Positions 2,652-24,690 of a stretch of 24,690 nucleotides of DNA are shown here, one piece after another (within the stretch, counting starts at the first letter, position 1; each line of letters opens with the position of its first letter). The notes beneath the pieces are model-generated. The model was not told the origin of the DNA. It ran no database searches and saw nothing but the letters and a program-made list of their open reading frames with translations. A program made the position numbers and the translations under genes. This stretch comes from Gemmatimonadota bacterium (GTDB taxonomy: Bacteria > 4572-55 > J002), in contig RFFQ01000010.1 in assembly GCA_003697105.1 (NCBI GenBank), positions 1 through 24,690 of the forward strand, given 5' to 3'.

Positions 2652-4595
2652 TTATGAAAGGTACTCATTTAACAATTGGTTCACCACAGCACCTGCAATT
2701 TTCCCCCGGCACTGTTTCATCACATTCCCCATAATGAAATGGTGTTTTGCCGCCGGACTGGTGTAGGGACGTTCAACCGCAAGTTCCTGTTGAAGGAGGT
2801 CTTTCACGGTTGCTTCGTCAATTGAAGGCAACAGAAAGGCGTGAATTTGGGTTGCTAGATCAACAGTCCCATCACTTTTGAGGAATGTTTCTAATAACGT
2901 TTCCGCCGCTTCCACCAATGGCGGGTGGGTGTTCGCATGGGTAAACAGGGTCTGCCAGACGGCTTCGGTTAAACGGGAGGTATCCAGCCCTTCGCGGCGC
3001 CAGGCCACCGTTTTTTCAAACATCAAGCGGGCAATTCGCACTGGAGAGAGGCGGTTAAATGTCTTGACCAAAGATTCAAATAATTCTGCCTGCATCGAAG
3101 AAGCAATTGGTACTAACAGATGTTCCGGCACTCCCCATTCGCGGTAGCGGTCTTCCCGCACCCACATTTGCTCCGGCACATCTTCAGCGAGGTTTTCAAT
3201 GCGCTGGGGGGTAATCTCCAATGGCGGGAGGTCGGTATCGGGGTACATCCGCTCGGGACCCGGCAGAATACGCTCAAAGCCGTTTGTACCATCGTCAAGG
3301 GCTTGGCGCGTTTCACTGGGGACAGGACAATCCAATGTTGCTTCGCGGGCACGGATAGCAATCTCATCAATGGCAGTTTTCACATCTTGAGAGCTACCCC
3401 AGACCAAGATTAATGCGTCATTAGCTTGTGCCCGAACCGCTTTGCGAATCCGGTTCCAGACCACATTGCCGATGGTGACTTCCGTACTTTCCGAGGTCAA
3501 GATGTTGGGCTGGCGGGTCAGGCAAGCAATCACCCGCACCCGGTCGGAAATTTCCTTGGAAAAGACCGTTCCGGTTTGGGTCGGGTAGCTCAGAATGCCC
3601 AAAAAGCCCTTTAAGTTGACACATGCCACCATCTCTTGCCGCTTATGAATTGCCCGTTGGATCGGTTCCCAGGTTGTGTGCATCAGGTAGGAGGTCACAT
3701 CCACCCATTCATATTGAAAGGTGTCCGGGGTGATGCCGCGCCGGCGCAATTCATCCCGAATTTTCAGCAAGGAATATTGTCGTTGGGCTTCATGGTAGAT
3801 CAAGCGAGGAATGAGTTTGATGCGGTGGACACCTTTGATTTCGATCCGGGTACCCCCAGCGATACTCACATTAACATCTTCCCGTGCCGCACCTAAACCG
3901 GTGCGAACTCTGCCAGTACTGCGGGAAACATACCGGATAATATTGCACACATCCGCAACTTCCTGCGGAGTACGCATGACTGGCTCCGTAACAACTTCCG
4001 TGATCGGCATCCCCAACCGGTCGGTGATGTAAATACGCTCATGTCCGATGTCAGACACTTCCCGGCAGGAATCTTCCTCCAACCCCAACTGCACCAAACC
4101 GATCTTACGCCCTTTGTAAGGTAACCAGCCATCAATCCCGACAATTGTCGTCCGTTGAAAGCCGGTGGGAATACTCCCATCCAGATATTGCTTGCGGGCA
4201 ATATGAATCTCGCTCACGAGCTTATAGTTCATCACCATCGCCAGTTGTAAGGCAATATCAAGCGCTTGTTGGTTGATTTCAAAGGGGGGTGTATCATCCA
4301 TCTCATAGGTACAAACACTTTGATGATTGATGCGGTAGATAATTTCTTTGCGAGTTTTGAATTCCATCAGCGCCGTTCCATCGTACTCGCCCAATTCCGA
4401 AAGGGTTGGGCGCATGTGGCGCAAAATCTCGGCATCGTATTCTTTGGTGTTGTATAACCCGGCGGGACAGCGGCAGAATAGTTTGCGGTCGGTTAATAGC
4501 TGTTGGTGTACTTCCAACCCGGAACGTAGCCCGATTTCGGCATAATCTTCCGGCGTCATCTCTTCAAAAGGCTTCAAAAGTCCAGATAACGTCAT
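2652..4595 (-). CDS. gatE: Glu-tRNA(Gln) amidotransferase subunit E (GatE, archaeal-type)
   Basis: 647 residues, the usual GatE length and longer than bacterial GatB. GatE is the kinase/transamidase subunit that, with the glutaminase GatD, converts Glu-tRNA(Gln) to Gln-tRNA(Gln). Signature stretches include GLEVHQQL then LFCRCP near residues 28-45 (cradle start with cysteines), IARKQYLDGSIPTGFQRT (about 131-148), the GLEEDSCRE acid cluster, GLGAAREDVNVSI (about 234-246) and PGPERMYPDTDLPPL (about 448-462). Between about 280 and 420 lies the AspRS-like GAD insertion that distinguishes GatE from GatB. The C-terminal 200 residues form the helical/YqeY-like tRNA-binding tail. GAGG lies about 9 nt before the ATG. 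No gatD is in the window. GatDE is the archaeal system, so its presence among otherwise bacterial genes is notable. Confidence 0.92.
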   Translation of the reverse strand: MTLSGLLKPFEEMTPEDYAEIGLRSGLEVHQQLLTDRKLFCRCPAGLYNTKEYDAEILRHMRPTLSELGEYDGTALMEFKTRKEIIYRINHQSVCTYEMDDTPPFEINQQALDIALQLAMVMNYKLVSEIHIARKQYLDGSIPTGFQRTTIVGIDGWLPYKGRKIGLVQLGLEEDSCREVSDIGHERIYITDRLGMPITEVVTEPVMRTPQEVADVCNIIRYVSRSTGRVRTGLGAAREDVNVSIAGGTRIEIKGVHRIKLIPRLIYHEAQRQYSLLKIRDELRRRGITPDTFQYEWVDVTSYLMHTTWEPIQRAIHKRQEMVACVNLKGFLGILSYPTQTGTVFSKEISDRVRVIACLTRQPNILTSESTEVTIGNVVWNRIRKAVRAQANDALILVWGSSQDVKTAIDEIAIRAREATLDCPVPSETRQALDDGTNGFERILPGPERMYPDTDLPPLEITPQRIENLAEDVPEQMWVREDRYREWGVPEHLLVPIASSMQAELFESLVKTFNRLSPVRIARLMFEKTVAWRREGLDTSRLTEAVWQTLFTHANTHPPLVEAAETLLETFLKSDGTVDLATQIHAFLLPSIDEATVKDLLQQELAVERPYTSPAAKHHFIMGNVMKQCRGKIAGAVVNQLLNEYLS

Positions 4596-4651: not shown

Positions 4652-4680
4652 TATATACGCTCTATTGCGAGATCACTCAA
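4652..4680 (-). promoter_or_regulatory. Candidate sigma-70-like promoter of gatE
   Basis: On the minus strand TTGAGT (plus 4675-4680, overlapping the mscS stop codon), a 17-bp spacer and TATATA (plus 4652-4657). The predicted leader is about 50 nt. It suggests gatE is not purely read-through from the transporter-channel pair. Confidence 0.45.
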
Positions 4681-5447
4681 TGAATTTTTTCAGTCACCGA
4701 AGGATGCGAAAAGAATTGTGAAAGTTGGTCTTTGATCTGGCGTTCCATCTCATGAAAATAGCGATCATGAAAGGAATAAACCGTCACTTCAAACTCCACC
4801 ACATCCGCCGTTTGTCGGACGGACTTGAGACGTGGCTCCCGTTTTAAGGATGCCGCCGGAAAGTTCAGGATAATCTCCCGTAACCAACTCAAAAATTCGG
4901 GATTCACCTGAGACGCCGGTACTTGCAGTTGGAACACATATGTCTTTTCCGTCTCGATGGGGCTTGTTTTTTTGATAACCCCTTGGGAAATAGTGCTATA
5001 GGGGATTTTCACCCGCTCCCCATCGTGGGTTTCGATTTCGAGGATGCGAAATCCCAACGTCCGAATATACCCCTGATAGGTATCCCATTCAAGCCAATCA
5101 CCTACTTGATACACATCCTCGGATTTTAAGATGATCCCAGCGGCAATATCCCGGATAGCAAACCAGACCGAGCCAATCCCCACAGCAACCATGACCCCCA
5201 ACAGCAGATACGCCAATTGCGGGCTTTCCCGAAAAAGAGATTTGAGCATCTGAAAACTAAAAATAAGCCAAACCAGCATTTCGACGACGAGAAACCCTTG
5301 TCCCAACCGCAACCGGTACGGTTTTTTGAGGTCTGCCCGGTGGAGAACGGTTTGCAAAAGCCGGAAACTGATAAACAAAATCACGCCCAGCAGCAGAAAT
5401 TCGACCAATAGAAATTCCGATATGTTGAAATGCCATGACGGATTCAT
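4677..5447 (-). CDS. MscS-family mechanosensitive ion channel
   Basis: 256 residues, slightly shorter than E. coli MscS. Three N-terminal hydrophobic segments (about 10-35, 48-70, 76-100). The third, Gly/Ala-containing, runs directly into the pore-lining/beta transition IRDIAAGIILKSEDVYQVGD, typical of the MscS beta domain. Then come LEWDTYQGYIRTLGFRILEI and IPYSTISQGVIKK, the conserved beta-domain core, and a C-terminal alpha/beta domain. The family opens on membrane tension and releases solutes during hypo-osmotic shock. The start overlaps the stop of the upstream transporter fusion by 4 bp (ATGA), so the two are almost certainly co-translated. It may be specialised for the fused transporter rather than being the housekeeping channel. 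Confidence 0.9.
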   Translation of the reverse strand: MNPSWHFNISEFLLVEFLLLGVILFISFRLLQTVLHRADLKKPYRLRLGQGFLVVEMLVWLIFSFQMLKSLFRESPQLAYLLLGVMVAVGIGSVWFAIRDIAAGIILKSEDVYQVGDWLEWDTYQGYIRTLGFRILEIETHDGERVKIPYSTISQGVIKKTSPIETEKTYVFQLQVPASQVNPEFLSWLREIILNFPAASLKREPRLKSVRQTADVVEFEVTVYSFHDRYFHEMERQIKDQLSQFFSHPSVTEKIH

Positions 5448-8400
5448 AGGACTTCCATCTCCTTTAATTTGCGCACCAGATACGGATGGAGAAACGGATT
5501 AATTTCTAAAATATGATACGTATTTTCCGTGACAATCCCCATCCGTTTGAGGGTTGTGAGGTCTTGCTTCCAACGTTCGGGGGGACGGCGTAAAATACGA
5601 GCCAGCCGGGCACGTGTCAATTTTTTGTGCAAAATAAACTGAATCAGGATCAGAATCCAATCTGGTTCAAGCAAATTCAAGGGTTTTAGGTCTGGGGTCA
5701 CCGGTTTACGGATAATCAAGGTTTCATTTTGGATCTCCTGAATATTGGCTATCCACGCTTGAAGCGCCACACCCGGATTACCGCGGGAATATTTGAAATA
5801 CTCCGTAAACAAGCGGGCTTGTTTCCATTCTGCCAAATGTTTCTCGTCGTGCCCATCCAATTGGAAAGTCAATCCGGTGGAACGGTGTCGCCGTAAAATT
5901 AAATCCTTCAATTGTTCCGCATCAAACGGGGGGCAAGAGATTACTTCCAGCATGAGATGGTCTAAGTTACGTAACGCATTGATAAAATTGTAGCTATAAT
6001 GATTCAAATTGAGGATAAAAAAGTATTTATCCCCATAATCCGTCATCAATTGTAAAATACGATTAACGACAACCATGCCGCCGGCACTACGCTCCCACCA
6101 CATATCCAAATCATTGAAAACAAAAACACTATGAGCCGGTAAGGTATTAAAAATATCGCTATAGGGCAATTCGGACGCCACGGCATGTTGAACGGTTGTT
6201 TCAAACACGGCCAACTCAATTGACCCACCTTGTGGCGGGTCAATGCGATAAACCCGCCGCGTATCAAAACATTGATGCGCAATGAAAAGCGAAAGTGCCG
6301 TTTTCCCGGAATACCGCTCCCCAATGATGGCTAAGCCTCCGGCAATACCGCTCCGAAAGCGGCGTACTGCCTGCTCTGCGCGGGCGATCTCAGCCGTAGC
6401 ACCGATCCAAAACTCCGTACTAATCGTAGGTTTACCGATGAACAACTGTTTATAGTAAAAGGGCAATGCCGCCAGAATCCGTTTTGGTGGCGAAATGGTA
6501 TCGACCAGCGCCAACATGCTTTCCACCTTCCCCCCGGCGGTTTCAAGGGGTGAAGTACCCCTTGTGCGGGATAAGTTGCGGCTCTGATGGTACCACAATT
6601 TCACCAGTACCTCCCGTCCAAAACGATACAACTGCTCCAACTGTTCCTGAAATTTGGAGGGCACCGCTTGGTCCACTTGATGCTGCATATACTGCCCCCA
6701 AACACCGGTGGAATGGGTGATAAAGTACAAATTAATCTTTTCAAAGGTCTGTTTTAGATGGCGTTGGGTGGCTTCATTCAGGATGTTCAAGATTTTTTCG
6801 ATTTGCTCTCGTTCGCTTTGGATAATCCGTATCCCATCGGTGATTTTTTGGACGGTCGCCTCGTAGACGGTCTCCAGATCAATCTCTAAATCGCTGAGAT
6901 GGAGCGAGACCATGCGGAGTACATCACTGGTGGTGCCTAAGGCTTTGCTCAGTTTGAGCGGCAATTCCGCCATCACGGCTTGTAAAGGGCGCACAAATTC
7001 AGTCGCAATCAGATAATCCACCAGCCGCCGGAGGGATATTGTCAACACCTCAATGCGATCAAACTGGCGGTTTTCAATCATGTTGAGGGATTCCCCACTC
7101 ATCACCTCAACCGTTTCCGGCAGTTCACCGGTAACCTCTTGAATTTCAGCGACAAGTTTGTCCATTGCCTCTTGGATATCAAAATCAACTCGTAGTTCTG
7201 GCATAACCGGCAGGGTATAGTCTGTTTTTTCCTGAAGATGGGTGCGCAGTTGCTCCAAGTCCGCCGTTAATTCTTGGAAGTTTTCACTGATATTTTTCTG
7301 CACACTCTGATTCAACTCGGACATCATTTTTTGCACCAGCATCCGCATCCGGCTCTGCAAAGAGGCTAACACAAGGTCAGTCAACAGAACATTCAGTACC
7401 AAATACTGATTTTTCAACCATAGACTTGGGACATTCAAAATTTGATCCCGTAATGCTTGTGCAGACTTCGGAACTCTGCGCTGGCGCCGGATAAATTGGT
7501 TGACATCGATCCGGTCGGCATCCTGAATCAGCCGTTGCAGGATGTGCCGGCTCTCTCGTAGCAAGGTATGGCGGCAAGTATTAAATTTCTCCTGATGACT
7601 TGCCGTGGTCTGCGCCGTAAGGGTCTTCAATTTTTCGCGTTCGGCGGCGATAACTTCCGGCGAAAACTCATCTGTTTGGAGGTGCCGGTCTAAAACGGAT
7701 AAACTGGACTTTGCCTGTTCTAACAATCGCTGCACCTGATACAGATTTTGGTAGCTATCCACCCCAAATTCTTGCAATATCTGGTAAAAAAGGTGGCGTC
7801 CTTTGGTTTCTACATAAAAAATTTTAAGGTCACGTAACCGTACATCCTGCGTGATCACTTTTGCGGGATTTAGACGTGCTTTCTGCCACTTAAAAAGCTT
7901 CAGGCGAAGTGAATCTTCCGGCTGGATGGCAAACCGCTCGAGTTCATAGCCAACATTCAAGGTTTCTGGGGTGCGGTATGCCAGCTCGGTCATTTGTGAA
8001 AAAATCCACGTGATCCCCGCCTCCGCCATCTCCTTTTGGTCGGGCAAGTAATCTGTTTTAAACTCTGTGAGAATCCGGCGAGCTTGAAACAAGAAATTAT
8101 TCCGAATTTTGGGGATCACCTTCTGTTGCCGTAAACGCTCCGTGGTGGAAACCTGCTTTTCCAGATCGGTAAATGTGCGCTGGATCAACTGGTTGATGGT
8201 GCCAATCAACTGTTGGTCTGCTCCGTACATCTCTTTCAAGTAGCAGTCGATGTAATCCCGCAGGAGGTCTTCCAACTGTTGGGCTAACTGCCGTAATGCT
8301 CGTTCCAGCGCATCATTTTGGGGAAAGATCAGTGCCGGCAGTTGAAATTCGGTAATAGGGGTGGTGTCATCCTTCAATTTGGGTTGTTTTCGCTCGATCC

Positions 8401-10591
8401 CGACAAAAATTTCCTCAAAATAGGACGAAGCCCGGATCAACAGCACCGTACCGATTTCATGAAGCAACCAATTGGTATTTGCAATAAATTGATCTACATT
8501 TTGCGGATTGACATCGGGCATCCCGATGATAGTCAGATCAGAATGCACGGATTCCAGTTTAATCAAGTCCCGAAAACTGCGCTTTTCAATGGCATTGTTG
8601 ATCACTTTTACTTCGGCGGGGATGCGATATTCTTCCAATACTCGCCCCATATTTTTGATGATTCGGGGAGTAAGGGAACTGTCCTCATTCACAATCATGA
8701 CCCGGATGAGCGCGTCGCGCCATTCATCCGAAACGCGCATAAATTTGACTAACATCAAAGATAAGCTGATATTATTACCGGAACCCCGCCACCAAATATC
8801 AATTTGCTGGCGTTTGCCATATCCAAACCGGTCATCATAATCAAGTAGTAAGAGATTATAATCCAGCTCGGTCATGGTGTGGAGCAAGTCCACAAAGCGT
8901 GCCGGATTACGGCTGTTGCGCACCCACCCCATCAGCACGGTATTGGGTTCAATTCCGGAAAATCCGTAGCTCCGCACAATCATATCAATACCGTCATAGA
9001 TGTTGCGGCAGGTTTGGCGGCGCATAAAAATGCCGGTAAATTCATCCGGGTCGGTCTTCAACGCTTGGTTGGATTTGGAAAAGAGGACTTTCGTGGTCGT
9101 ATCTTCAATGAGATCAAAATTGGAGAGAACACCCCGATTTTGTACCAACCATTTACCGAATTGCAACAAATGCGGACGTTTATCCGTGCCCCCACTAAAT
9201 AGGATCACGTTGGGCTGCCAGTTTCGTTTGTGAAGGTCACTTTGGTTGAGTTTGAACAGCCCAGAGCGAACCACCGTAAACCAGACCCCTGCCCAGACAT
9301 CCCCGGCATCTGTACCGAGTTCCTTGCGCTTGAGATAGAAAAAGATGCCGATCATGATCAGGGAGGAGGCAATCATTGCCACCACATCCAATAAAATCAT
9401 AAACAGAAAGCAGACAACCGCACCGACAACGCTTACCCATGTGGGAATCTTAAATTCGGGACGGAAATCAGGACTTGCCCAACTTTCAATGGCATACGTC
9501 AGGTTGAGGAAACCGTAGGTGGTCATGTAAAACATGGAGACAATGCGGGCGATCAGGTCTAATTCCCCGCTCCAGATAGCAATCTCGGCAATAATGGCAG
9601 TAAAAATGAGGGCATTTCGCGGTTCGTTACCTTCACCAAACCCGATTCCGAAAAGTTTTGGTGTCACTCGATCCATTGAGAGGGCTTGTAAAATACGTGG
9701 TGCTCCCAAAATGCCCCCCATAGCAGAAGAGATGGTCGCCGCCCAAATACCACCCAATACCAGCGGTGACCACCACGCAATTTGCTTAAGAATGTTGTAA
9801 TCCGTGCGAAGAACCTCGCCATCCACAGTTAGACCTAGAAAAATCGCCAAACTAATATAGATCACAAGTCCGGTTCCTACTGCCGCCATAGTGCCGACCG
9901 GAATCGATTTGTTAGGGTCTTTCAAATCTCCTGACATGGCAATACCCGCTGTGAAGCCCGTTACCGCTGGAAAGAATATCCCAAAAACCTCCGCAAAGGA
10001 GCGGGATTCTGCCGGCGCAAACAAATTCACGTGGGTGGGAACAAAATCATGGGAACCCAAAAAGATGGAAACGAGGGAGAGCGCAATCAACCCCAATACT
10101 AAAAATTGCGATTTTAAGGCAAGAGACGTGCTGATAAATGCGAGTGTCGTAACAACAAGCAACGTTAAAGAACCGGTGAGCCGCAAATCCGCTTTGGTCG
10201 TACCTAACGTGATGCCAAAAAATGAATCCAGTAGCGGTGAAAACGCCTCATTGAAACTTTCGGCAAAACCGACAATATACAGCGCAATACTAACCGCCGT
10301 TCCGGCATAAAGGGCAATACCCAATGCGCCACCAATGGAGAGTCCCAAACTGCGTGAAATGATATAATAGACACCTCCAGCTTTGACCCGCTTGTCTGTC
10401 GCAATGGAAGACACACTCAATCCAGTGGAGACCGAGATAATGTGCGCAATCAAAATAATCCCAATCGCTCCGATAATCCCGGCTTGTCCAACGACCCACC
10501 CGAGACGCAGGTACATAATCACGCCAAGGATCGTCAGAATCGATGGAGTAAATACCCCCGCAAATGTTCCGAATTTGTAACCGTTTGCCAT
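5444..10591 (-). CDS. SLC12-like cation-chloride cotransporter fused to a P-loop (AAA+/STAND-like) ATPase and winged helix
   Basis: 1715 residues in one uninterrupted frame. Residues 1 to about 425 are an APC-fold transporter of about twelve membrane segments, starting FGTFAGVFTPSILTILGVIM, characteristic of cation-chloride cotransporters. Residues about 440-725 match the SLC12 cytoplasmic C-domain, including IDIWWRGSGNNISLSLMLVK near 600 (eukaryotic SLC12 proteins have a similar IDVWW segment). Residues about 740-1380 are long amphipathic, coiled-coil-rich helices with no family I recognise. A P-loop ATPase follows: Walker A GERYSGKT (about 1422-1429), Walker B VFVFNDLD (about 1493), a sensor-1-like LNLNHYSYNF and GNPGVAL. 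The last 60-70 residues look like a winged helix (KLTRARLARILRRPPERWKQ). Ordinary bacterial SLC12 proteins end after the second part. There is no clear Shine-Dalgarno; the start sits against an octamer repeat tract. The next gene, mscS, overlaps it. Confidence 0.88.
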   Translation of the reverse strand: MANGYKFGTFAGVFTPSILTILGVIMYLRLGWVVGQAGIIGAIGIILIAHIISVSTGLSVSSIATDKRVKAGGVYYIISRSLGLSIGGALGIALYAGTAVSIALYIVGFAESFNEAFSPLLDSFFGITLGTTKADLRLTGSLTLLVVTTLAFISTSLALKSQFLVLGLIALSLVSIFLGSHDFVPTHVNLFAPAESRSFAEVFGIFFPAVTGFTAGIAMSGDLKDPNKSIPVGTMAAVGTGLVIYISLAIFLGLTVDGEVLRTDYNILKQIAWWSPLVLGGIWAATISSAMGGILGAPRILQALSMDRVTPKLFGIGFGEGNEPRNALIFTAIIAEIAIWSGELDLIARIVSMFYMTTYGFLNLTYAIESWASPDFRPEFKIPTWVSVVGAVVCFLFMILLDVVAMIASSLIMIGIFFYLKRKELGTDAGDVWAGVWFTVVRSGLFKLNQSDLHKRNWQPNVILFSGGTDKRPHLLQFGKWLVQNRGVLSNFDLIEDTTTKVLFSKSNQALKTDPDEFTGIFMRRQTCRNIYDGIDMIVRSYGFSGIEPNTVLMGWVRNSRNPARFVDLLHTMTELDYNLLLLDYDDRFGYGKRQQIDIWWRGSGNNISLSLMLVKFMRVSDEWRDALIRVMIVNEDSSLTPRIIKNMGRVLEEYRIPAEVKVINNAIEKRSFRDLIKLESVHSDLTIIGMPDVNPQNVDQFIANTNWLLHEIGTVLLIRASSYFEEIFVGIERKQPKLKDDTTPITEFQLPALIFPQNDALERALRQLAQQLEDLLRDYIDCYLKEMYGADQQLIGTINQLIQRTFTDLEKQVSTTERLRQQKVIPKIRNNFLFQARRILTEFKTDYLPDQKEMAEAGITWIFSQMTELAYRTPETLNVGYELERFAIQPEDSLRLKLFKWQKARLNPAKVITQDVRLRDLKIFYVETKGRHLFYQILQEFGVDSYQNLYQVQRLLEQAKSSLSVLDRHLQTDEFSPEVIAAEREKLKTLTAQTTASHQEKFNTCRHTLLRESRHILQRLIQDADRIDVNQFIRRQRRVPKSAQALRDQILNVPSLWLKNQYLVLNVLLTDLVLASLQSRMRMLVQKMMSELNQSVQKNISENFQELTADLEQLRTHLQEKTDYTLPVMPELRVDFDIQEAMDKLVAEIQEVTGELPETVEVMSGESLNMIENRQFDRIEVLTISLRRLVDYLIATEFVRPLQAVMAELPLKLSKALGTTSDVLRMVSLHLSDLEIDLETVYEATVQKITDGIRIIQSEREQIEKILNILNEATQRHLKQTFEKINLYFITHSTGVWGQYMQHQVDQAVPSKFQEQLEQLYRFGREVLVKLWYHQSRNLSRTRGTSPLETAGGKVESMLALVDTISPPKRILAALPFYYKQLFIGKPTISTEFWIGATAEIARAEQAVRRFRSGIAGGLAIIGERYSGKTALSLFIAHQCFDTRRVYRIDPPQGGSIELAVFETTVQHAVASELPYSDIFNTLPAHSVFVFNDLDMWWERSAGGMVVVNRILQLMTDYGDKYFFILNLNHYSYNFINALRNLDHLMLEVISCPPFDAEQLKDLILRRHRSTGLTFQLDGHDEKHLAEWKQARLFTEYFKYSRGNPGVALQAWIANIQEIQNETLIIRKPVTPDLKPLNLLEPDWILILIQFILHKKLTRARLARILRRPPERWKQDLTTLKRMGIVTENTYHILEINPFLHPYLVRKLKEMEVL

Positions 10592-15717: not shown

Positions 15718-18700
15718 TCATTTAATGGTGACTTTATAGCTCATCTGCCCGCTTTGCCCAGGAGTGAGTTCTAGCACATTAACATTCACGTTTGTAAAAT
15801 CAATTGAAATGGAGTGTCCATCATATCCCCCACCGTCATTATCCCCATCATTGGCATCGGCGGTCAGATAAATGGTACTGCCATCGGGACGGACAAACTC
15901 AATATCTTGCGAACCCGCGCCGGTATCAAAACCATCATACACGATGTTCACAAATTCTGAAATTGGGTCGGAGAGATCAATTTGGAGTAACGTATCCGCA
16001 CCCGCATTGATATATGTCACCGTATAAAGCAGGGTATCTCCGGGTGACGCCACCGCTTTATCAACCGATTTGACCAGTTGCATACTGCCGGTCTGCACAT
16101 CGCCCACCGTTGTCATATCCGTGACACTGCTGGTAATTGCCGGATTATTGACTGACGTGGCAGTAAAGACGGTAACATCCACAGCATTATCTGGTGTGCT
16201 GGTGGGTACAAACGCCGTCACAATAATATCCACGGTACCCCCTGCCGGCACATTACTCAATGAGGTAATCGGGCTGCCGGTTGGGTTTCCACTGCCATCA
16301 TCCAAGTAAATCGCCCACGCCCAGCCCCGTGAACTGGTAAAGCTTAGATTGACATCATCTGGCACACTTCCCAAGTTAGTCACATCATGGAAGTAATGGA
16401 CTCGCGTCCCTTTCGGTACCGTCCGGCTTTGATCTGGCAGAATAATAATACCGCCCAGATGTACCGTAGCCGAGGCATCTGGTCCGGGGCTGTATTTGCG
16501 CCGGTAGGTACTGGTCGGATGGCTATACCACGTATCCACCTGTGCCGTATTGGTAAAGGCAGTACCTAAGGGGACGATGTCTAAAATATTACTATCCACA
16601 ATCGCACTGTAATAAATCACCAAGCTATCACCGCCGGAATTGAGAGAGTCGCCGCTACCAAACGTCCAGGTAATTCGTCCGGTCGTAGAATCATAGACCG
16701 CCAAACTCGGGGTTGTCGCCACATTATTGATCTCGTATGCCGGAGCGGGTGAGCCAGTGAGCGGATTATCCGAGCGCATCCCATTGGGCACGACATCTGT
16801 AATGATAATATCATACGCTTTCGCTGGGGAAGAGCCGCTATTGACCACCTCAATGCGGTATCGAACCGTATCACCGGCGGCAACGGTCTGTTTATCCGCC
16901 GTTTTGGTGATTGACATTCGAGGCTGAACGATAGTATGGCTGGTTGAGGCGTATCGCGACTCATAATCCGCCGCCAGATCATCACTAAAACCATGGTTCA
17001 CGTAATTCCAATTTACACTGGCATTATTGGTCACCGTTCCATCCACGCTGGTATTGAGGAATAAATTTTGTCCGGTGGAATTTTTGCCGGTCACATCAAC
17101 GGTATAATAAACATAGATGCTTTCCGGGCTAGTGTTCGCATTGGTGATCGGGTTAAACTCCCAGCGGGGGATAAACCGGCGGAATGAATTCAGCGAATCC
17201 GAGATGTCAAAGGAGGTCAACGCCGTATTGGGATCGGTAATGCTGGCATCACTTCGTCCATAGGATACGGTTGTGGTATCCATGCGGGTGGCTTCCGGTA
17301 ACGTATCGACCACCACCGGATAATAGATCACCGTTTGCCGGGGCAATTCGACGGTCAGCGTATAGGATTGCCGGTCGCCGATGCGCCAGGTAGTGCCGGT
17401 TGGTGTTTTGGTAATGGTCGCGCCTTCAATCGCCACCACACCGGCGGAATCTGGACCCACATCCGCATAAGCAGGGGTCGAATCGGTGTCGCGTTCGAGT
17501 GGTAGATTGCCCGGCAACGTACTGTAATCGATCACATCCACCCGGTTCGTGATCAGTTTGGAAGATTCCATAATCTCGGAATTCAGAGTCGCCGTATATT
17601 CCAGTAAAACGGTTTCGGCGGTATCTACCCGGGCCGTCGCATTACTGGCATTGGTGATCAACGTGATAATCCATTCTCCGGTCGCCGCCGTGTAAGATCG
17701 ACTGTAATCCACACCGTCAGTCAGAGCGCGTCCACCCGAGGTGAACGTGGTAATCGTCGGTTCGGTACCGTTCATTTCCGCCGGGATGGTATCCCGAATT
17801 ACCACATCATAGGCGGCAGAATTACCGGTATTTTGAAATGTGACGGTGTAATTGACCGAACTCACTCCCGGGCGCACAATCGGATTACCATTTCCGTCCG
17901 TTCCGAGGTTGGGTGCAACCGGCGGGACATCCAAGTTCTTGACCAGATTGGAGATCGTTGGTTCGATGATAGTTGCTTGTACCGGATTGGATTGAATCTG
18001 GGTGACCGATGCTGGATTGCCATTGATGGTATTCCAGCGGAAACCTGCCCGGTTGGTCAACACACTATCTCGTGCCACATCCGGCGAACCTCCAAAATAT
18101 TGTTGATCCACGTTCGTGCGCATCGTGATGCGATAGGGATTGACCGTCGCATTCCCCGGCAAACTTCCTAATGAGAGGGCAATGGTATCTCCCAAACCGG
18201 TATAGAGCGTATCAATGGAGCCGCTGTTATTCTGGAATCGCAGGTCAACCAGCGAGACACCATCCGGCAAGGTATCCAGAAAGACGGATTGGTAAGCCGT
18301 CGTCTGATTTGGTACATCAAATTCAATGATATAATAGAGCGTATCCCCGATGGTCGTTACAACATCCGTGCTATCGGTAGGGGAGGGGTCCACAAAAACG
18401 GAATATTGATTTTTGATTTGTGTCGGTAATCCATCGGTAAACGCTAAAGCAGTATCATTTTGGGTCGATTGGTACACCCGCTCAAAAGGGGTTGAACCGG
18501 GCAGACTGGAAAAGGTATCCACGACCGCATGGTTGACCATGTAGGCTGAGGTACCAATACTGGCATCGACTTGCAGTTGGTAATTAATCGTCACCGTTTC
18601 CCCCGGATAAACGGGTGTGTTTGCGGTACTATCAAATTCGATGGTAAAGACTGTGCCATCGTACAAAAGGGTGGTATCTCCCGCACCTAAAGTCCGTGCG

Positions 18701-21700
18701 CCGACCGTGATTGAAATCGATAAGGTGGTGGGGTCGGTATCGCGCATACCCTGCGGCACGGTATCCCGAAAGACGGTTTCATAGGCAACTCCATCCCCGA
18801 CATTATCAAACGTAACGGTATAATTGACAATCTGCGTTCCCGAGACCGGATTACCGGTGGTCTGTGTCTTGACAAAATTCGCAAATTCCGGCTCATTGAC
18901 ATACGTGGTGACGGTATTCGTAACGGAACTTAACTGCGTCCCCACATCATCATTGATGTAATTCCACGTGAAATAGCCGGTATTACTGAACGAATCGGTA
19001 CTATCGACCGGGCTTCCCCCATTGAACGTGGAATCCACACGAGCGGTAATATCAATCGTTACCGTTAACCCTGCGGCGCCACCGAAAAGAGAATCAAACT
19101 CGGCACCGCTCACTTGGACCAGAGTTGTCCCATTCCCTTGCGGTGTCTCCGTAATCGTCCCATGCGTGGTACTGGTGTTTAGAACCGTTAGCCCATCTGG
19201 GATGGTATCGCGGAAGACGACATCGTAAGCAGTAGCACTATCCGGCACAATAAACTGAATCTGGTAATAAATTTCCTCACCGATCTGCACCGAATCCCCA
19301 TCCGCCGGCGCATGATACTGGGTCGTCACCGATTTAGACGAGGTGGGACCTCGCGTATAAAACGTATTACAATCTGGACCCACTTGGGTATAGACGCGCT
19401 CTGGGGTGACATAGGCACTGTCCGCGGGACCGGTGAAGTTCCCATACTGGGCCGTATCTTTAATGGAGGTATAACTGAGCACAGCGGCACAGTTCTGCAT
19501 GGTAACACCTGCCCCAATGGAGGAATCAACCGTCGCGGTATAGGTTATCGTAATGACTTCATTGGGGTCCACCACGGCAGTAGCGGTGGTATCAAACGCA
19601 ATGGTGAGTACCCCTGTACCGCTGTTAAAACTGGCGTTAAAATCCGTTCCGGAGGTAAATGCACCATCGGTACTACTGGTAATTGCTACCGTACCAGAAG
19701 GATCGGTTAAGCGCATTCCGATAGGCAACGTATCCACCACCACTACATCATAGGCAGGGGAATCAAAGTTATAGCCGGGGTAATTATTATCAAAAGTCAA
19801 CGTAAAGGGGATATTTTCGTTTGCTTGTACCGTATCATCGGGGGTCGTGTGGGTCTTCGTAAAACTGATAATCTGCGGTTCGATGACATAATAACGGATA
19901 TTAGGACCGTAATCTTCATCTTGGGTCGTCGGATTCCCATTTTCATCGTACGTATCCCAATTAAAATCATTCACACCGCGATTTTGGGTCCGGACTCGCA
20001 GTTCATCGCTAACGTCCACGACCCCGTTGAGTGGACCCGCCTCATTTTGCCCACTGCCACCCCCGTGATAATTGCTCATGACACTCGCAATAACGGTAAT
20101 GGTGACCAGTGAGTCGCTCGCTCCGGCCCGGATTCGATCCCATTGGACTTCAAAACCACGATACGTCCCTGTCCGAATATAATTGAAAATATTGGGGTTA
20201 TCTCCACCATTAATGGTAATTTCCTGAATTTCCCAGCCATCATCCAATTGAATCAACGCATTTGGATTATAGGCTTGCGTATATGCCGGCACGGTAATTT
20301 CGTAGGTAATGGTGGTATATTCCCCAATGGTAATATGGGGGCGATTTGATCCACCGTCATATGTGGTGGACTGCTGTCGCGTAAAGCTACGGGAAAGCGT
20401 GACATTGGGGGTCTGAAAACTAATGGATTGCAACAAGTTCGGGTCATACGTGCGTTCATTTGCACTGGTATCTGGCATGGAGGTATAACCGGTTATATCT
20501 GCATAATTGGAGAGGGTCACCAAGGTTTGACCAGCGGTTGCGATTCCATTTGCCGAGATGGTATCATCAACATCCACCGTGTACTGAATAAAGAGCGTAT
20601 CCAAGGGTGCCAGACCCCCTTGGGTGCTATCTCCTTGCGTTTTGAAGGTTAAAATACCTGTTGCCGCCGTGTAGGTGGTATCAATAACCCCTAACACGAC
20701 GAGATCACGGGTGCTACCGGCATCTGGACGGATTTCCACCGTATTGATCGTGGGTGTTGCATTTCGCATCCCATACGGCAGAGTATCCGCAATGGTAATT
20801 TGATATGCCGGAGACGTTCCACTGTTGACCGCCCGCAACGTGAACACAATTGTGGAATCCCCATTGATCGTGCCCGAAATGTTACTGGTTTTGCTGAATG
20901 TACTGACGTTTGGCTCAACAATATAATAATCAATGGTACGGGACATCGTCGTCGGGAAAGCGTTATGATTGTAATTGACCCCGTAAATGGAAAAATCGGT
21001 ATAACCGGTATTCGGTAGTTGGGTGGGAATGGTGTAATCATTTCCCGGCACATCCTGCGGTCGCGTGGCATATTGGATAACAACTTCCCCTTGACCTCCT
21101 GGACTCACAAAATCCGCCACAGTCCAGACCAATGACGGCGCCGTTGAATCGGATAACGTGACGGTCGAACCGGTGGTATTGGTAATAATACTGAAACTGC
21201 CCGGCACATACTCCATACCGGTCGAAATGGAATCACCAATGGTCACTCCGGTATAATTCCCCGCGGCAAACAGATTGAGCGAATCTCGATGGAAAATGGG
21301 ATTCCCGATGGTTCCATAGGCGGTGCTGTCTGAGGTCACGGCGCCGGGCTGCACGGTGGACCAGTGAACTTTGTTAAATTCCACTCCGGCAACCGTTACA
21401 ATCGCCGGGGTCGTATCATAGCTATGGCGGCAGATACGGGTACCCGCGCCATCCACACACCAGCCTTCCACTACACCCAATACATTAAGGGAATCGGGCC
21501 CAACAATCGCGCTAAAAACCGCCGATTTGGTATCATTTCCGCCAGCCGCTTCAATGGTATCAATATCGGTATAATCCCAATAAAGAACGCTATCACCGAT
21601 AATCGTTGCCACACCTAATGAATCTACCCCGCCTCCTTGTCCACTTTCTTGCACGATACTACTAAATCCGTTACCGAGTTCAATGTTGAGATAAAGAGAA

Positions 21701-24690
21701 TCCGCGGCACCATCTCCCACATTCGTCAAGGTTACGGTAAATGTAACGCGTTGACCTAACCCTGCCGTTTGCAAGGTGGGTGTAATGTCGATATTCACAT
21801 TGGGGGTGAGGGGATTAACGGTTGTCGTTGCAGGTGGGGATACAATTGGGTCACCGCATGTGTTGGTATAATCTAGGTCAACAACATTATCACTTGTCGG
21901 TACGATACCGGGGTCACTATTCAAGTCGGAATCACAATAGGTACCATCACCTTCCACCCGAAACGTAATGGTGATCCGCTCACCCGGGATGATGGTATCC
22001 ACTTCGGTTGCCCATTGGATGATAGTACCACCGGCAGACGTATCGGGCTCCGTATCGGCAAAGGTACGTCCGGTGGGCAAACCGGTACTAATATACGTAC
22101 TCGTAATCGTTGCCGTGCCCTGATCATAGACATAGCCTGTGGGTAGGGTATCCGTGACGACCACATTCCGCGCTACGGAACTCGGCATTCCACCGGTGGT
22201 ATCGTTATCCACAATGATACGCATCTCACCGCCACAGGTGCTAAAATCTGCCGAGGAAACCACGCTTGTCGCCCCTGCCACCGAAGGTTGCGTCACCACG
22301 GTTCCAGAGGTGACACTGGTAAACAAATCCCGGCAACTACTGGCATTACATCCCCAATACACATACGCCAAATTCGTGACCGGGTCCACACAACTATCCA
22401 CAACAGTATAAATATAATATTCCGACAACCCTAACGGCAGGTCCGATGCTAAGGTAAATTCATACGCTCCATTCACGATGTTGACACTACTGATCGCCGG
22501 TGCACTCCCTTGGGGAACAATTGTTTGATACTGCAAATTGGATGGAATACTATCCCGAATGAGAGCATTCTGGGCAGTGGCATTTCCATTATTATAAATC
22601 TGAATGCGATAATAGACCGGTTCGTTATAGGACGCATAAATGGTATTACTCCACGACCCTGTCGTATCTTTTGCCACATCCTTATTTAAGGTGATGATCG
22701 GCTCTTTAATCTCGATGGTGATCGAGTTAGAGAGTGAAATTTCCGTTGCTGTTGAGGTGCCCGAGGTATCCACTTGGCACGGAGTCGAATACCGCGCCAC
22801 CGTACTGGTACGACGATTCGCCGAAAAATCACAGGTCGTACGAACTTCAAAGAAGATTTTGAGGGTATCCCCCACATCCAGAGAGGCTAATTCAGGAATT
22901 TCGGTTTTCGTCCAGAGCAACAAGGTATCGCCGGCCGTAAAACCAGCCGGGTCATTTGTGGCGGTACGTGCACCACTATTGAGTTGAACTTTCGTCGTTC
23001 CGGTTTGATATTCAAACCCCGTTTGAAGAAAATCATACTCAGCTTCGATATTATAATCCGTAGTTGCCCCATTATTGATCAAATAGATTGCTAAGGTATC
23101 CGTCGAACACAACTCGACGGAATCTGGCACCACATTTCGCGCCCGTAAATTGGAGTTCGGGACGGTAAATCGGGGAACACCATCTTTGACGATGGGTGTG
23201 GCACAACTTCCCGGACAGTTTTTGTACCATGTGGTGGTAGAAGAGGTCTGATCGGCTAAATCACAATCGGTCCCTTTCAGACGGGTAAAAACGGTAATGG
23301 TATCCGTTTGACCGGGCGCAAGGTCGCCCAAATCAATATCAAAGGTTGTCTTGTTGACTTGATAATTAAACGTAATCAATGAATCTTGACGACTACCGTT
23401 CACATAGACGGAATCCAGCCGCAGATGTTGCCCAATGGAATCATATAAGGCCGTATTAAAAGCGGTGCCGCTTCCGGAATTGGTCACATAAATAATCCAA
23501 CTCGGGTTGATATTCTCGACGGTCACATCGTTTGGAGTAAAAATCACACTGACATCGGCAACAGTATTCAACAACGGTTCATCACTATTGGTCACTGAAC
23601 CATATACCGTACCGCATGCATCTCGCTCGTGGAGTGCGACATTCAGCAATTTTGGCGTCCCGCAGATTTTAGTCAGGAGCAGTCGAATCGTTCCGGTGGC
23701 GCTGGTATTCGGCGTGTTCAGGAAGCGGAACACTAAACTATCAGCATAGGCGGTCGTATCCGAAGGCAATACCCCACCAAATCCGGTGATCGATGTGACG
23801 GAATTATACAGGTAATTTGTCGTTTCAATAACAACTTCAACGGTATCCGCATTCCAGTTGGAACCGGAAACACCCACCAGATCAATATCAACGGAGATCG
23901 TATCACAATCGGCAACAATATTTCGTGAAAAATTAGGAGTAATGGTGATATTGGGGGTCGGAATGGTAAACGACAGATTATCCGTGGCAAAAGCTGGGTC
24001 GGTACAATTATAATCTACCCGGGCGTTAATACTCGTGGTGGGGGTACAATCGTTATAAATTTTTGCCTGAATCGTTCCCGTACCGACAGGCAAGCTCGAG
24101 CCAGCAAAAGAAAATCGCGTGCTGTCCCCCAACGTGATAATGGTCGGCTTAATATTCCCAAAGCCACTAACACTGTTGGTATCCACGAACACATAATCGG
24201 GGTGAATTAAGGTTACAAAAACCGAATCGGCGGTGTAATTGGTAATATTTAGGTCAATATCCACATCAAAGGTATCAAAGACGGCCGCCGCTTGGGAAAG
24301 AGCAAGGGTAATCCCCGGATTCGATTGCACAAAATTAACCGTCTGGACATAATCCCCATTACCACCGCCCCCACAACCGGCATTGTTACCGTTAATCGAC
24401 AAGGTGGAAGTAGTCGGATACGTGAGGGTGGAATCGGGTCCGATATTGGGCGGGTCAAATGAGAGATCGTATTGGATAATCAGTTGGTCACCACGCACAA
24501 AATCATCGGCTTCATCGAATAAAAAGTCCAGTGTGATGTAGATCGAATCATTCGAGACGGTTGAATCCGCAACTGGAATCGGGTTGGGACCAAACACGGT
24601 GGAGTTGCTATCCGTTAAAGTGTAGGTGAGATTTCCTGCATATTGCATATTGGGATGGGTTGTAGTTGCCAAAAAGGTGGAATTGGTCCA
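15718..24690 (-). CDS. Giant secreted DUF11 / isopeptide-fimbrial-like repeat protein (N-terminus outside the window)
   Basis: At least 2990 residues. The frame is open to the window edge (it begins WTNSTFLATTTHP there), so the true start and any signal peptide lie beyond 24690. It is rich in Thr, Ser, Asp, Asn and Val and very poor in Lys. It is made of Ig-like beta domains of about 150-180 residues with the DUF11 (TIGR01451-type) signature: a YTVTFxNxGxxxAYDVxxxDTxP core, then a YTAxVDSxI strand and TNxAxV near the end. From about 20925 to 16465 two domain types alternate (see the repeat entry). Near 16460-16090 is a CARDB-like domain (GIIILPDQSRTVPKGTRVHY), then a final DUF11 domain with an Asp/Gly-rich loop (ADANDGDNDGGGYDG). 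It ends ...SYKVTIK with no LPXTG or type IX sorting domain. Likely a surface fibre or matrix protein. Confidence 0.85.
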   Translation of the reverse strand, partial: WTNSTFLATTTHPNMQYAGNLTYTLTDSNSTVFGPNPIPVADSTVSNDSIYITLDFLFDEADDFVRGDQLIIQYDLSFDPPNIGPDSTLTYPTTSTLSINGNNAGCGGGGNGDYVQTVNFVQSNPGITLALSQAAAVFDTFDVDIDLNITNYTADSVFVTLIHPDYVFVDTNSVSGFGNIKPTIITLGDSTRFSFAGSSLPVGTGTIQAKIYNDCTPTTSINARVDYNCTDPAFATDNLSFTIPTPNITITPNFSRNIVADCDTISVDIDLVGVSGSNWNADTVEVVIETTNYLYNSVTSITGFGGVLPSDTTAYADSLVFRFLNTPNTSATGTIRLLLTKICGTPKLLNVALHERDACGTVYGSVTNSDEPLLNTVADVSVIFTPNDVTVENINPSWIIYVTNSGSGTAFNTALYDSIGQHLRLDSVYVNGSRQDSLITFNYQVNKTTFDIDLGDLAPGQTDTITVFTRLKGTDCDLADQTSSTTTWYKNCPGSCATPIVKDGVPRFTVPNSNLRARNVVPDSVELCSTDTLAIYLINNGATTDYNIEAEYDFLQTGFEYQTGTTKVQLNSGARTATNDPAGFTAGDTLLLWTKTEIPELASLDVGDTLKIFFEVRTTCDFSANRRTSTVARYSTPCQVDTSGTSTATEISLSNSITIEIKEPIITLNKDVAKDTTGSWSNTIYASYNEPVYYRIQIYNNGNATAQNALIRDSIPSNLQYQTIVPQGSAPAISSVNIVNGAYEFTLASDLPLGLSEYYIYTVVDSCVDPVTNLAYVYWGCNASSCRDLFTSVTSGTVVTQPSVAGATSVVSSADFSTCGGEMRIIVDNDTTGGMPSSVARNVVVTDTLPTGYVYDQGTATITSTYISTGLPTGRTFADTEPDTSAGGTIIQWATEVDTIIPGERITITFRVEGDGTYCDSDLNSDPGIVPTSDNVVDLDYTNTCGDPIVSPPATTTVNPLTPNVNIDITPTLQTAGLGQRVTFTVTLTNVGDGAADSLYLNIELGNGFSSIVQESGQGGGVDSLGVATIIGDSVLYWDYTDIDTIEAAGGNDTKSAVFSAIVGPDSLNVLGVVEGWCVDGAGTRICRHSYDTTPAIVTVAGVEFNKVHWSTVQPGAVTSDSTAYGTIGNPIFHRDSLNLFAAGNYTGVTIGDSISTGMEYVPGSFSIITNTTGSTVTLSDSTAPSLVWTVADFVSPGGQGEVVIQYATRPQDVPGNDYTIPTQLPNTGYTDFSIYGVNYNHNAFPTTMSRTIDYYIVEPNVSTFSKTSNISGTINGDSTIVFTLRAVNSGTSPAYQITIADTLPYGMRNATPTINTVEIRPDAGSTRDLVVLGVIDTTYTAATGILTFKTQGDSTQGGLAPLDTLFIQYTVDVDDTISANGIATAGQTLVTLSNYADITGYTSMPDTSANERTYDPNLLQSISFQTPNVTLSRSFTRQQSTTYDGGSNRPHITIGEYTTITYEITVPAYTQAYNPNALIQLDDGWEIQEITINGGDNPNIFNYIRTGTYRGFEVQWDRIRAGASDSLVTITVIASVMSNYHGGGSGQNEAGPLNGVVDVSDELRVRTQNRGVNDFNWDTYDENGNPTTQDEDYGPNIRYYVIEPQIISFTKTHTTPDDTVQANENIPFTLTFDNNYPGYNFDSPAYDVVVVDTLPIGMRLTDPSGTVAITSSTDGAFTSGTDFNASFNSGTGVLTIAFDTTATAVVDPNEVITITYTATVDSSIGAGVTMQNCAAVLSYTSIKDTAQYGNFTGPADSAYVTPERVYTQVGPDCNTFYTRGPTSSKSVTTQYHAPADGDSVQIGEEIYYQIQFIVPDSATAYDVVFRDTIPDGLTVLNTSTTHGTITETPQGNGTTLVQVSGAEFDSLFGGAAGLTVTIDITARVDSTFNGGSPVDSTDSFSNTGYFTWNYINDDVGTQLSSVTNTVTTYVNEPEFANFVKTQTTGNPVSGTQIVNYTVTFDNVGDGVAYETVFRDTVPQGMRDTDPTTLSISITVGARTLGAGDTTLLYDGTVFTIEFDSTANTPVYPGETVTINYQLQVDASIGTSAYMVNHAVVDTFSSLPGSTPFERVYQSTQNDTALAFTDGLPTQIKNQYSVFVDPSPTDSTDVVTTIGDTLYYIIEFDVPNQTTAYQSVFLDTLPDGVSLVDLRFQNNSGSIDTLYTGLGDTIALSLGSLPGNATVNPYRITMRTNVDQQYFGGSPDVARDSVLTNRAGFRWNTINGNPASVTQIQSNPVQATIIEPTISNLVKNLDVPPVAPNLGTDGNGNPIVRPGVSSVNYTVTFQNTGNSAAYDVVIRDTIPAEMNGTEPTITTFTSGGRALTDGVDYSRSYTAATGEWIITLITNASNATARVDTAETVLLEYTATLNSEIMESSKLITNRVDVIDYSTLPGNLPLERDTDSTPAYADVGPDSAGVVAIEGATITKTPTGTTWRIGDRQSYTLTVELPRQTVIYYPVVVDTLPEATRMDTTTVSYGRSDASITDPNTALTSFDISDSLNSFRRFIPRWEFNPITNANTSPESIYVYYTVDVTGKNSTGQNLFLNTSVDGTVTNNASVNWNYVNHGFSDDLAADYESRYASTSHTIVQPRMSITKTADKQTVAAGDTVRYRIEVVNSGSSPAKAYDIIITDVVPNGMRSDNPLTGSPAPAYEINNVATTPSLAVYDSTTGRITWTFGSGDSLNSGGDSLVIYYSAIVDSNILDIVPLGTAFTNTAQVDTWYSHPTSTYRRKYSPGPDASATVHLGGIIILPDQSRTVPKGTRVHYFHDVTNLGSVPDDVNLSFTSSRGWAWAIYLDDGSGNPTGSPITSLSNVPAGGTVDIIVTAFVPTSTPDNAVDVTVFTATSVNNPAITSSVTDMTTVGDVQTGSMQLVKSVDKAVASPGDTLLYTVTYINAGADTLLQIDLSDPISEFVNIVYDGFDTGAGSQDIEFVRPDGSTIYLTADANDGDNDGGGYDGHSISIDFTNVNVNVLELTPGQSGQMSYKVTIK
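16465..20925 (-). repeat. Alternating two-domain super-repeat inside the giant protein (A-B x4, then A)
   Basis: Reading the protein, type A domains start at about 20925, 19885, 18890, 17965 and 16925. They open with EP..xxFxKT and carry DTLPxGMRxxxPT, and most end near PxERxY. Type B domains start at about 20420, 19350, 18430 and 17435. They carry an IGDxxxYxIxVPxxTxxY core, DTLPDG and, near the end, a Phe/Asn-Trp-Asn motif (FTWNYIN, FRWNTIN, VNWNYVN), then VxEP leading into the next A. Boundaries are approximate, and the period is about 1 kb. Copies are diverged at the protein level; I did not align the DNA. Confidence 0.7.

Follow-up and report, generated by a model that had tools for sequence, protein, structure and literature searches.

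Positions 1 to 24,690 of contig RFFQ01000010.1, from a Gemmatimonadota bacterium (assembly GCA_003697105.1), make up the stretch of DNA analysed here, the window. One of its genes encodes a fusion protein that runs from the transmembrane (TM) core of an SLC12, or cation-chloride, cotransporter through the SLC12 cytoplasmic domain to a helical domain of about 570 residues, a P-loop ATPase and a winged helix. This gene is half of a two-gene unit, the other half being an MscS-family gene directly downstream, which was overlooked in the initial annotation of the window. The helical domain, ATPase and winged helix, together called the module below, also exist free and on antiporters. Since the free, antiporter and SLC12 forms all adjoin MscS-family genes, the module and the MscS family are the constant pair, to which the transporter is a variable addition. 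The sequences suggest that the two genes may form an osmotic or ion-homeostasis unit, in which an ATP-binding switch would couple an ion transporter to a sensor derived from MscS, a proposal that we regard as evenly balanced between right and wrong.

The fusion gene and its transporter part

In the initial annotation the gene was read as a single uninterrupted frame of 1715 codons, and this is borne out, on the minus strand. The annotation also asked whether homologues split into two genes near residue 730, as a local fusion or an assembly error would have it. Loci bearing on this question come from 84,980 species genomes of GTDB, scanned with an ATPase profile made from three homologues; the scan yielded 184 relatives. 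Eighty loci were kept, and nine of these end at a contig edge before the SLC12 part, leaving 71 that are informative for the joint. Both sides of the joint lie in one frame at 70 of the 71, a proportion that is no estimate of the SLC12 share among modules at large, the profile having been of the SLC12 type. The 70 comprise 65 complete loci, two that are truncated but fused, and three with a frame break in the transmembrane part that are continuous across the joint. At the only split locus (L146:3921-9077), transporter and module are parted by a single in-frame stop at the joint, which is either a natural split or a sequence error.

The nearest genome, which belongs to the same class, encodes a homologue of 1724 residues with the same domain order, 46% identical end to end, and a third homologue is found in a Delongbacteria genome. 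The fusion is confirmed as real, far beyond chance, because of the full-length homologue of the same order in the nearest genome and the 65 complete GTDB loci. An assembly or local-fusion artefact is ruled out by the recurrence of that order at these loci and in other families and phyla. The hosts represent at least eight phyla, namely Bacteroidota (most of them), Fidelibacterota/Marinimicrobia, Ignavibacteriota, Calditrichota, Cloacimonadota, Delongbacteria, Desulfobacterota and Myxococcota; further hosts are records titled Proteobacteria and one cultured strain, Perlabentimonas gracilis. A search of plasmids gave one weak AAA match.

In a tree of the ATPase domain, the SLC12-linked ATPases lie on one side of a fully supported branch, and in a tree of the transporter, the fused SLC12 proteins are split from free bacterial SLC12 proteins, again by a fully supported branch. 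Because each tree separates the fused copies with full support, the two fit a single fusion event whose product may have been inherited as a unit, with the caveats of a long branch between the groups, a quick method and an unsure root.

The domains named in the initial annotation were right throughout. The ATPase and winged helix appear in the AlphaFold2 model described below, and the transporter is matched by Pfam (AA_permease, PF00324, residues 13-460, E 1e-44; SLC12, PF03522, residues 472-559, E 2e-6; both above cut-off), by TIGR00930 (E 1e-120, yet under the model's own cut-off of 953 bits) and by KCC4 (E 3e-86), KCC1 and NKCC1 in a PDB search. The predicted ligands in the window protein are S288 and S289 for Na+, Y105 for K+ and Y359 at a Cl- site; the roles of the corresponding residues have been described for human NKCC1 (PMC7889885). 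Among the 65 fused members, the two serines of the TM8 Ser-Ser pair are kept in 65 and 64, the TM3 Tyr in 64 and the TM10 Tyr in all 65, and the ligand set of the family, including the TM1 break, is kept in 63-65. Conservation of the NKCC-type Na+ ligands alongside the tyrosines for K+ and Cl- makes Na-K-Cl cotransport the activity to predict first for the fusion. The cation-chloride family named in the initial annotation is thus right, but the K/Cl flux for which it proposed a test is too narrow, the Na+ ligands being conserved as well.

The transmembrane core, ion ligands and cytoplasmic domain are common to the fusion and to known SLC12 proteins (NKCC1, KCC1 and the prokaryotic MaCCC), whereas the approximately 980 further residues (helical, AAA+ and winged helix) are peculiar to the fusion. 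Free bacterial SLC12 proteins found here are mostly of 720-775 residues, without this addition; they also keep the ion ligands, except for one (L015).

The ATPase module and its MscS-family partner

Residues 740-1715 of the window protein match nothing in Pfam above cut-off, and nothing useful was found for the C-terminal 980 residues in Pfam, NCBIfam, PHROGs or PADLOC. AAA_16 is matched above cut-off by the paralogue P0003 (E 8.5e-10) and weakly, below cut-off, by the paralogue P0002 (E 3e-4). The initial annotation had proposed structure prediction as a check on the ATPase, and an AlphaFold2 model made with 66 homologues (mean predicted local distance difference test score, pLDDT, 86) indeed shows, at about residues 1375-1715, an AAA+ fold and after it a winged helix. 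The best solved match to this region (residues 640-980 of the model) is Aeropyrum ORC2 (1w5t; Z 16.0, 323 residues, root-mean-square deviation 5.4). NSF, Cdc6/Orc1 and TnsC come next (Z 14-15), in most cases aligned to nothing beyond the AAA+ core. Because the ORC2 match spans the ATPase as well as the winged helix, the two are, in the predicted structure, one Orc1/Cdc6-like unit.

The fusion shares with Orc1/Cdc6-type ATPases such as ORC2 the arrangement of an AAA+ core with a C-terminal winged helix, and a Walker A motif is present. Unlike them it is tethered to a membrane transporter, has no replication genes around it, and shows no conserved Walker B Asp-Glu pair, sensor-2 Arg or Arg finger. 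Within Walker A, the Gly is kept in 66, the Lys in 65 and the Thr/Ser in 64 of the 66 homologues. The first Walker B acid varies in the same set (N24 D24 E15 H3), the sensor-2 (GN-x-G) position shows no recurring Arg, and a search for an Arg finger from sensor 1 to residue 1553 found no strongly conserved R/K column, the maximum being 33/66 at residue 1539. A Trp-Trp pair (1498-1499), an Arg-His pair (1568-1569) and Trp1613 are strictly kept. The conserved Walker A Lys, the variable Walker B acid and the lack of both a sensor-2 Arg and a conserved R/K column suggest that selection on the domain has favoured the binding of nucleotide and communication over rapid turnover. In several antiporter-linked copies of the module not even the Thr/Ser of Walker A survives (e.g., GKA, GRQ).

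The helical domain is modelled, again with 66 homologues, as two bundles of long helices with a small beta-alpha-beta insert in each, and the hydropathy of residues 736-1305 is that of a soluble domain without a transmembrane segment. Foldseek gave no clear match to a solved structure (best E 0.08). Structure matches by VIA reach Z 12.4, with the stalk of a bacterial dynamin at Z 9.8; this is the level expected of any helical bundle, and no family is therefore claimed for the domain.

The module occurs twice more in the genome of the window. The free copy (L029:559-4781, contig C86) has 1063 residues, counted from an uncertain GTG start, and is directly followed by a canonical MscS gene (340 aa). 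The other copy is the C-terminal part of an antiporter fusion of 1544 residues with the same helical-ATPase-winged-helix order (L030:6729-11363, contig C169), the antiporter being identified by profile comparison only (probability 99.6%). More copies, each adjoining an MscS-family gene, were found in other phyla in a search of 386 genomes. In a second phylum, perhaps Myxococcota, 46 of 140 genomes have the module. Twenty copies from this phylum, chosen in a way that favoured long frames, comprise 14 fusions to antiporters of the Na+/H+-exchanger type, two SLC12 fusions and four free modules, and an MscS-family frame lies directly downstream of all 20, across the three architectures. PF00999 is matched above cut-off in eight of the ten antiporter fusions scanned. 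At L070:4684-12984, an antiporter-module fusion and an MscS-like gene stand beside two genes read as trkH- and trkA-like, in a compact potassium/osmotic cluster.

In the window, the start of the MscS-family gene and the stop of the fusion share 4 bp (ATGA, at the junction CTATGA). MscS-family genes number only eight in the 4.2 Mb of this genome, which excludes chance as the cause of the adjacency. An MscS-family frame is found directly downstream of the fusion at 63 of the 77 loci with room for one; 53 of the 63 frames start at -30 to +40 bp, and 13 overlap by 4 bp. The MscS gene at the locus of the nearest genome is divergent and not directly downstream. No further neighbour recurs among the 19 flanking genes scanned, apart from one second MscS gene. 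Two consecutive MscS-family genes follow the SLC12 fusion at L112:9066-10755, the second with a strong PF00924 match (E 3e-21). Three Bacteroidota contigs (L071, L072 and L084) carry a related ATPase end with no MscS gene downstream, the upstream part being beyond the contig edge.

A profile of the partner family aligns with E. coli MscS (E 9e-16) over residues 27-243, that is, over TM1-TM3 and the beta domain. The partner of the SLC12 fusion differs from the MscS channel in its bulky pore-helix residues and in having IPYS in place of IPN in the beta domain, while free modules adjoin canonical MscS. The Gly/Ala pattern of the pore helix is kept only beside free modules: the fraction of Gly, Ala and Ser in this helix (TM3a) is 0.40 there, 0.27 beside fused antiporters and 0.21 beside fused SLC12.

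Proposed mechanism and its alternatives

The sequences show the parts, their order and conservation, the residue patterns, the gene pairing and the sharing of the module with antiporters and MscS channels; the contact between the two proteins, the direction of control, the stimulus and the role of the partner as a sensor and not a channel are all inferred in the mechanism that we propose. The MscS-like protein would sense membrane tension or cytoplasmic crowding and touch the stalk or the ATPase. The AAA+ domain would bind ATP, with slow hydrolysis or none, and change its conformation or oligomeric state, and the switch, acting through the helical stalk, would open or close the cotransporter's transport cycle, making salt uptake track turgor. 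Cotransport would be driven by ion gradients, not by ATP. Where the module is free, the target of the switch would be a functional MscS channel; where it is fused, the MscS protein would serve as sensor and the transporter as effector. The same scheme may extend to a general relay from tension or crowding to transport, with an Orc-like switch plugged into three unrelated effectors, namely MscS channels, SLC12 cotransporters and Na+/H+-type antiporters. The MscS-family protein linked to the fusions would, in that relay, no longer be a channel and would signal to the Orc-like switch on its new helical stalk. We hold the general relay tentatively, at somewhat less than an even chance.

Several observations weigh against these proposals. 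About 14 loci with room for an MscS gene have none directly downstream, and the partner may thus be dispensable or encoded elsewhere. The antiporter fusion in the genome of the window is followed by gyrA instead of an MscS gene, so the pairing of module and MscS is not absolute. The loss of Gly and Ala from TM3 is no proof of a closed pore. Finally, 57 of the 66 homologues have Asp as the second Walker B acid, so that hydrolysis may still occur.

The pairing of module and MscS also without any transporter, and the presence of NSF, ClpB/ClpC and RuvB among the structural matches, would suit an assembly or remodelling factor that loads, clusters or dismantles MscS-type oligomers, the fusions then giving rise to a channel-transporter complex. 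Remodellers, however, require brisk hydrolysis, which the variable Walker B acid of the SLC12 clade, its want of a sensor-2 Arg and of a conserved R/K column (sensor 1 to 1553), and the loss of the Walker A Thr/Ser from some antiporter copies do not favour; we consider such a role unlikely. A pump energised by the ATPase would explain why an ATP site, with its Walker A strictly kept in the SLC12 clade, is covalently joined to a transporter. SLC12 carriers run on ion gradients, all the SLC12 ligands are kept, the hydrolysis residues are not strictly conserved, and the same module serves antiporters and channels, which makes a primary pump scarcely credible. The suggestion of the initial annotation that the ATPase regulates and does not energise the transporter holds up.

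It had also been suggested that the winged helix could bind DNA or a protein. The winged helix is there, but it belongs to the Orc-like fold and is thus no evidence of DNA binding by itself. A membrane-anchored Orc-like protein might nevertheless be a transcription regulator that reports transport, or a tether between DNA and membrane, as the best fold match is to archaeal ORC2/Cdc6 proteins, which bind DNA via both the AAA+ domain and the winged helix. In this ATPase clade, to which STAND proteins also belong, winged helices are commonplace without binding DNA; moreover, the module stays with MscS and transporters, and no DNA-related neighbour recurs among the flanking genes scanned, so that a role on DNA appears quite improbable. 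STAND proteins suggest a further possibility, an alarm or defence device of the STAND/nSTAND type, whose ATPase would sense a trigger and open ion fluxes that stop growth. The antiporter paralogue points in that direction by weak matches to AAA_16 and to nSTAND1, the latter seen in that paralogue only, as do the NLRP3 NACHT domain and a plant resistosome among the fold matches. But a convincing PADLOC match is lacking (best E 0.002), the chain stops at the winged helix without sensor repeats, and the SLC12 form has housekeeping neighbours, one origin and a broad distribution, leaving a slim chance for this explanation.

An ATP-binding regulatory switch, as proposed here, has partial parallels. 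Eukaryotic SLC12 proteins are under volume regulation, and their cytoplasmic domain binds ATP/ADP, in human KCC1 without known pumping (PMC8280820). The RCK/KTN domains on Trk and Kef, and TeaD on TeaABC, are likewise cytoplasmic nucleotide-binding domains that steer a secondary transporter or channel in osmoregulation; the domain of the fusion, in contrast, is of unrelated fold, much larger, of the AAA+ class and linked to the MscS family. The initial annotation knew of no described system with this architecture, and in the open-licence literature (subscription papers being outside the search) we likewise found no SLC12-AAA+ fusion, antiporter-AAA+ fusion of this kind or MscS-AAA+ gene pair, and no description of how prokaryotic NKCC/KCC relatives are controlled. 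The transporter and channel classes are thus known, while no described counterpart of the regulatory architecture was found.

NKCC and KCC proteins set cell volume and chloride in animals, and eukaryotic SLC12 proteins are controlled via kinases. The general relay, if true, would be a bacterial counterpart of the kinase-based control of cell volume through NKCC/KCC. Orc-like AAA+ domains would also acquire a function away from DNA, in ion transport, and MscS proteins would appear to be convertible from channels to sensors. The fusions form a large and widespread NKCC-like bacterial group with a regulator in the same chain and a probable sensor in the next gene, so that volume control of this class of transporters should become open to experiment in a bacterial system of just two genes. 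They point to an undescribed way of controlling cellular salt uptake.

Feature positions and other genes of the window

Table 1. Positions in the window of the fusion gene, its domains and motifs, and the partner gene
Feature	Position	Strand	Residues	Basis
Fusion gene	5444..10591	-		1715 aa; ATG start, no internal stop
SLC12/cation-chloride cotransporter transmembrane core	9272..10591	-	1-440	PF00324, TIGR00930, PDB KCC1/NKCC1 matches
SLC12 cytoplasmic domain	8387..9229	-	455-735	PF03522; TIGR00930 to residue 673; PDB KCC alignments to 666
Helical domain	6677..8386	-	736-1305	AlphaFold2, pLDDT 91, predicted template modelling score (pTM) 0.85
Low-confidence linker, read as disordered	6536..6694	-	1300-1352	pLDDT <50
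Orc1/Cdc6-like AAA+ ATPase (predicted)	5696..6433	-	~1387-1632	VIA-align Z 16.0 to Aeropyrum ORC2 1w5t
Walker A, GERYSGKT	6299..6322	-	1424-1431	Alignment of 66 homologues
Walker B-like, VFVFNDLD	6104..6127	-	1489-1496	Followed by clade signature WWE (1498-1500)
GNPGVAL	5762..5782	-	1604-1610	Sensor-2-like position (GN-x-G), without sensor-2 Arg
Winged helix	5447..5674	-	1640-1715	Model secondary structure; ORC2 match reaching the C-terminus
MscS-family partner gene	4677..5447	-		256 aa; PF00924 E 3e-12, above cut-off

Three other parts of the window, all on the minus strand, deserve mention. Two adjacent, similar TPR proteins are encoded at 826-2537, with a C-terminal part that is DUF5683-like (below cut-off), and an open frame of 2984 residues extends over 15718-24672. 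The gene at 2652-4595 encodes a GatE of 647 residues, a subunit of the archaeal-type Glu-tRNA(Gln) amidotransferase in a bacterial genome, matched by NF003107 and TIGR00134 above cut-off.

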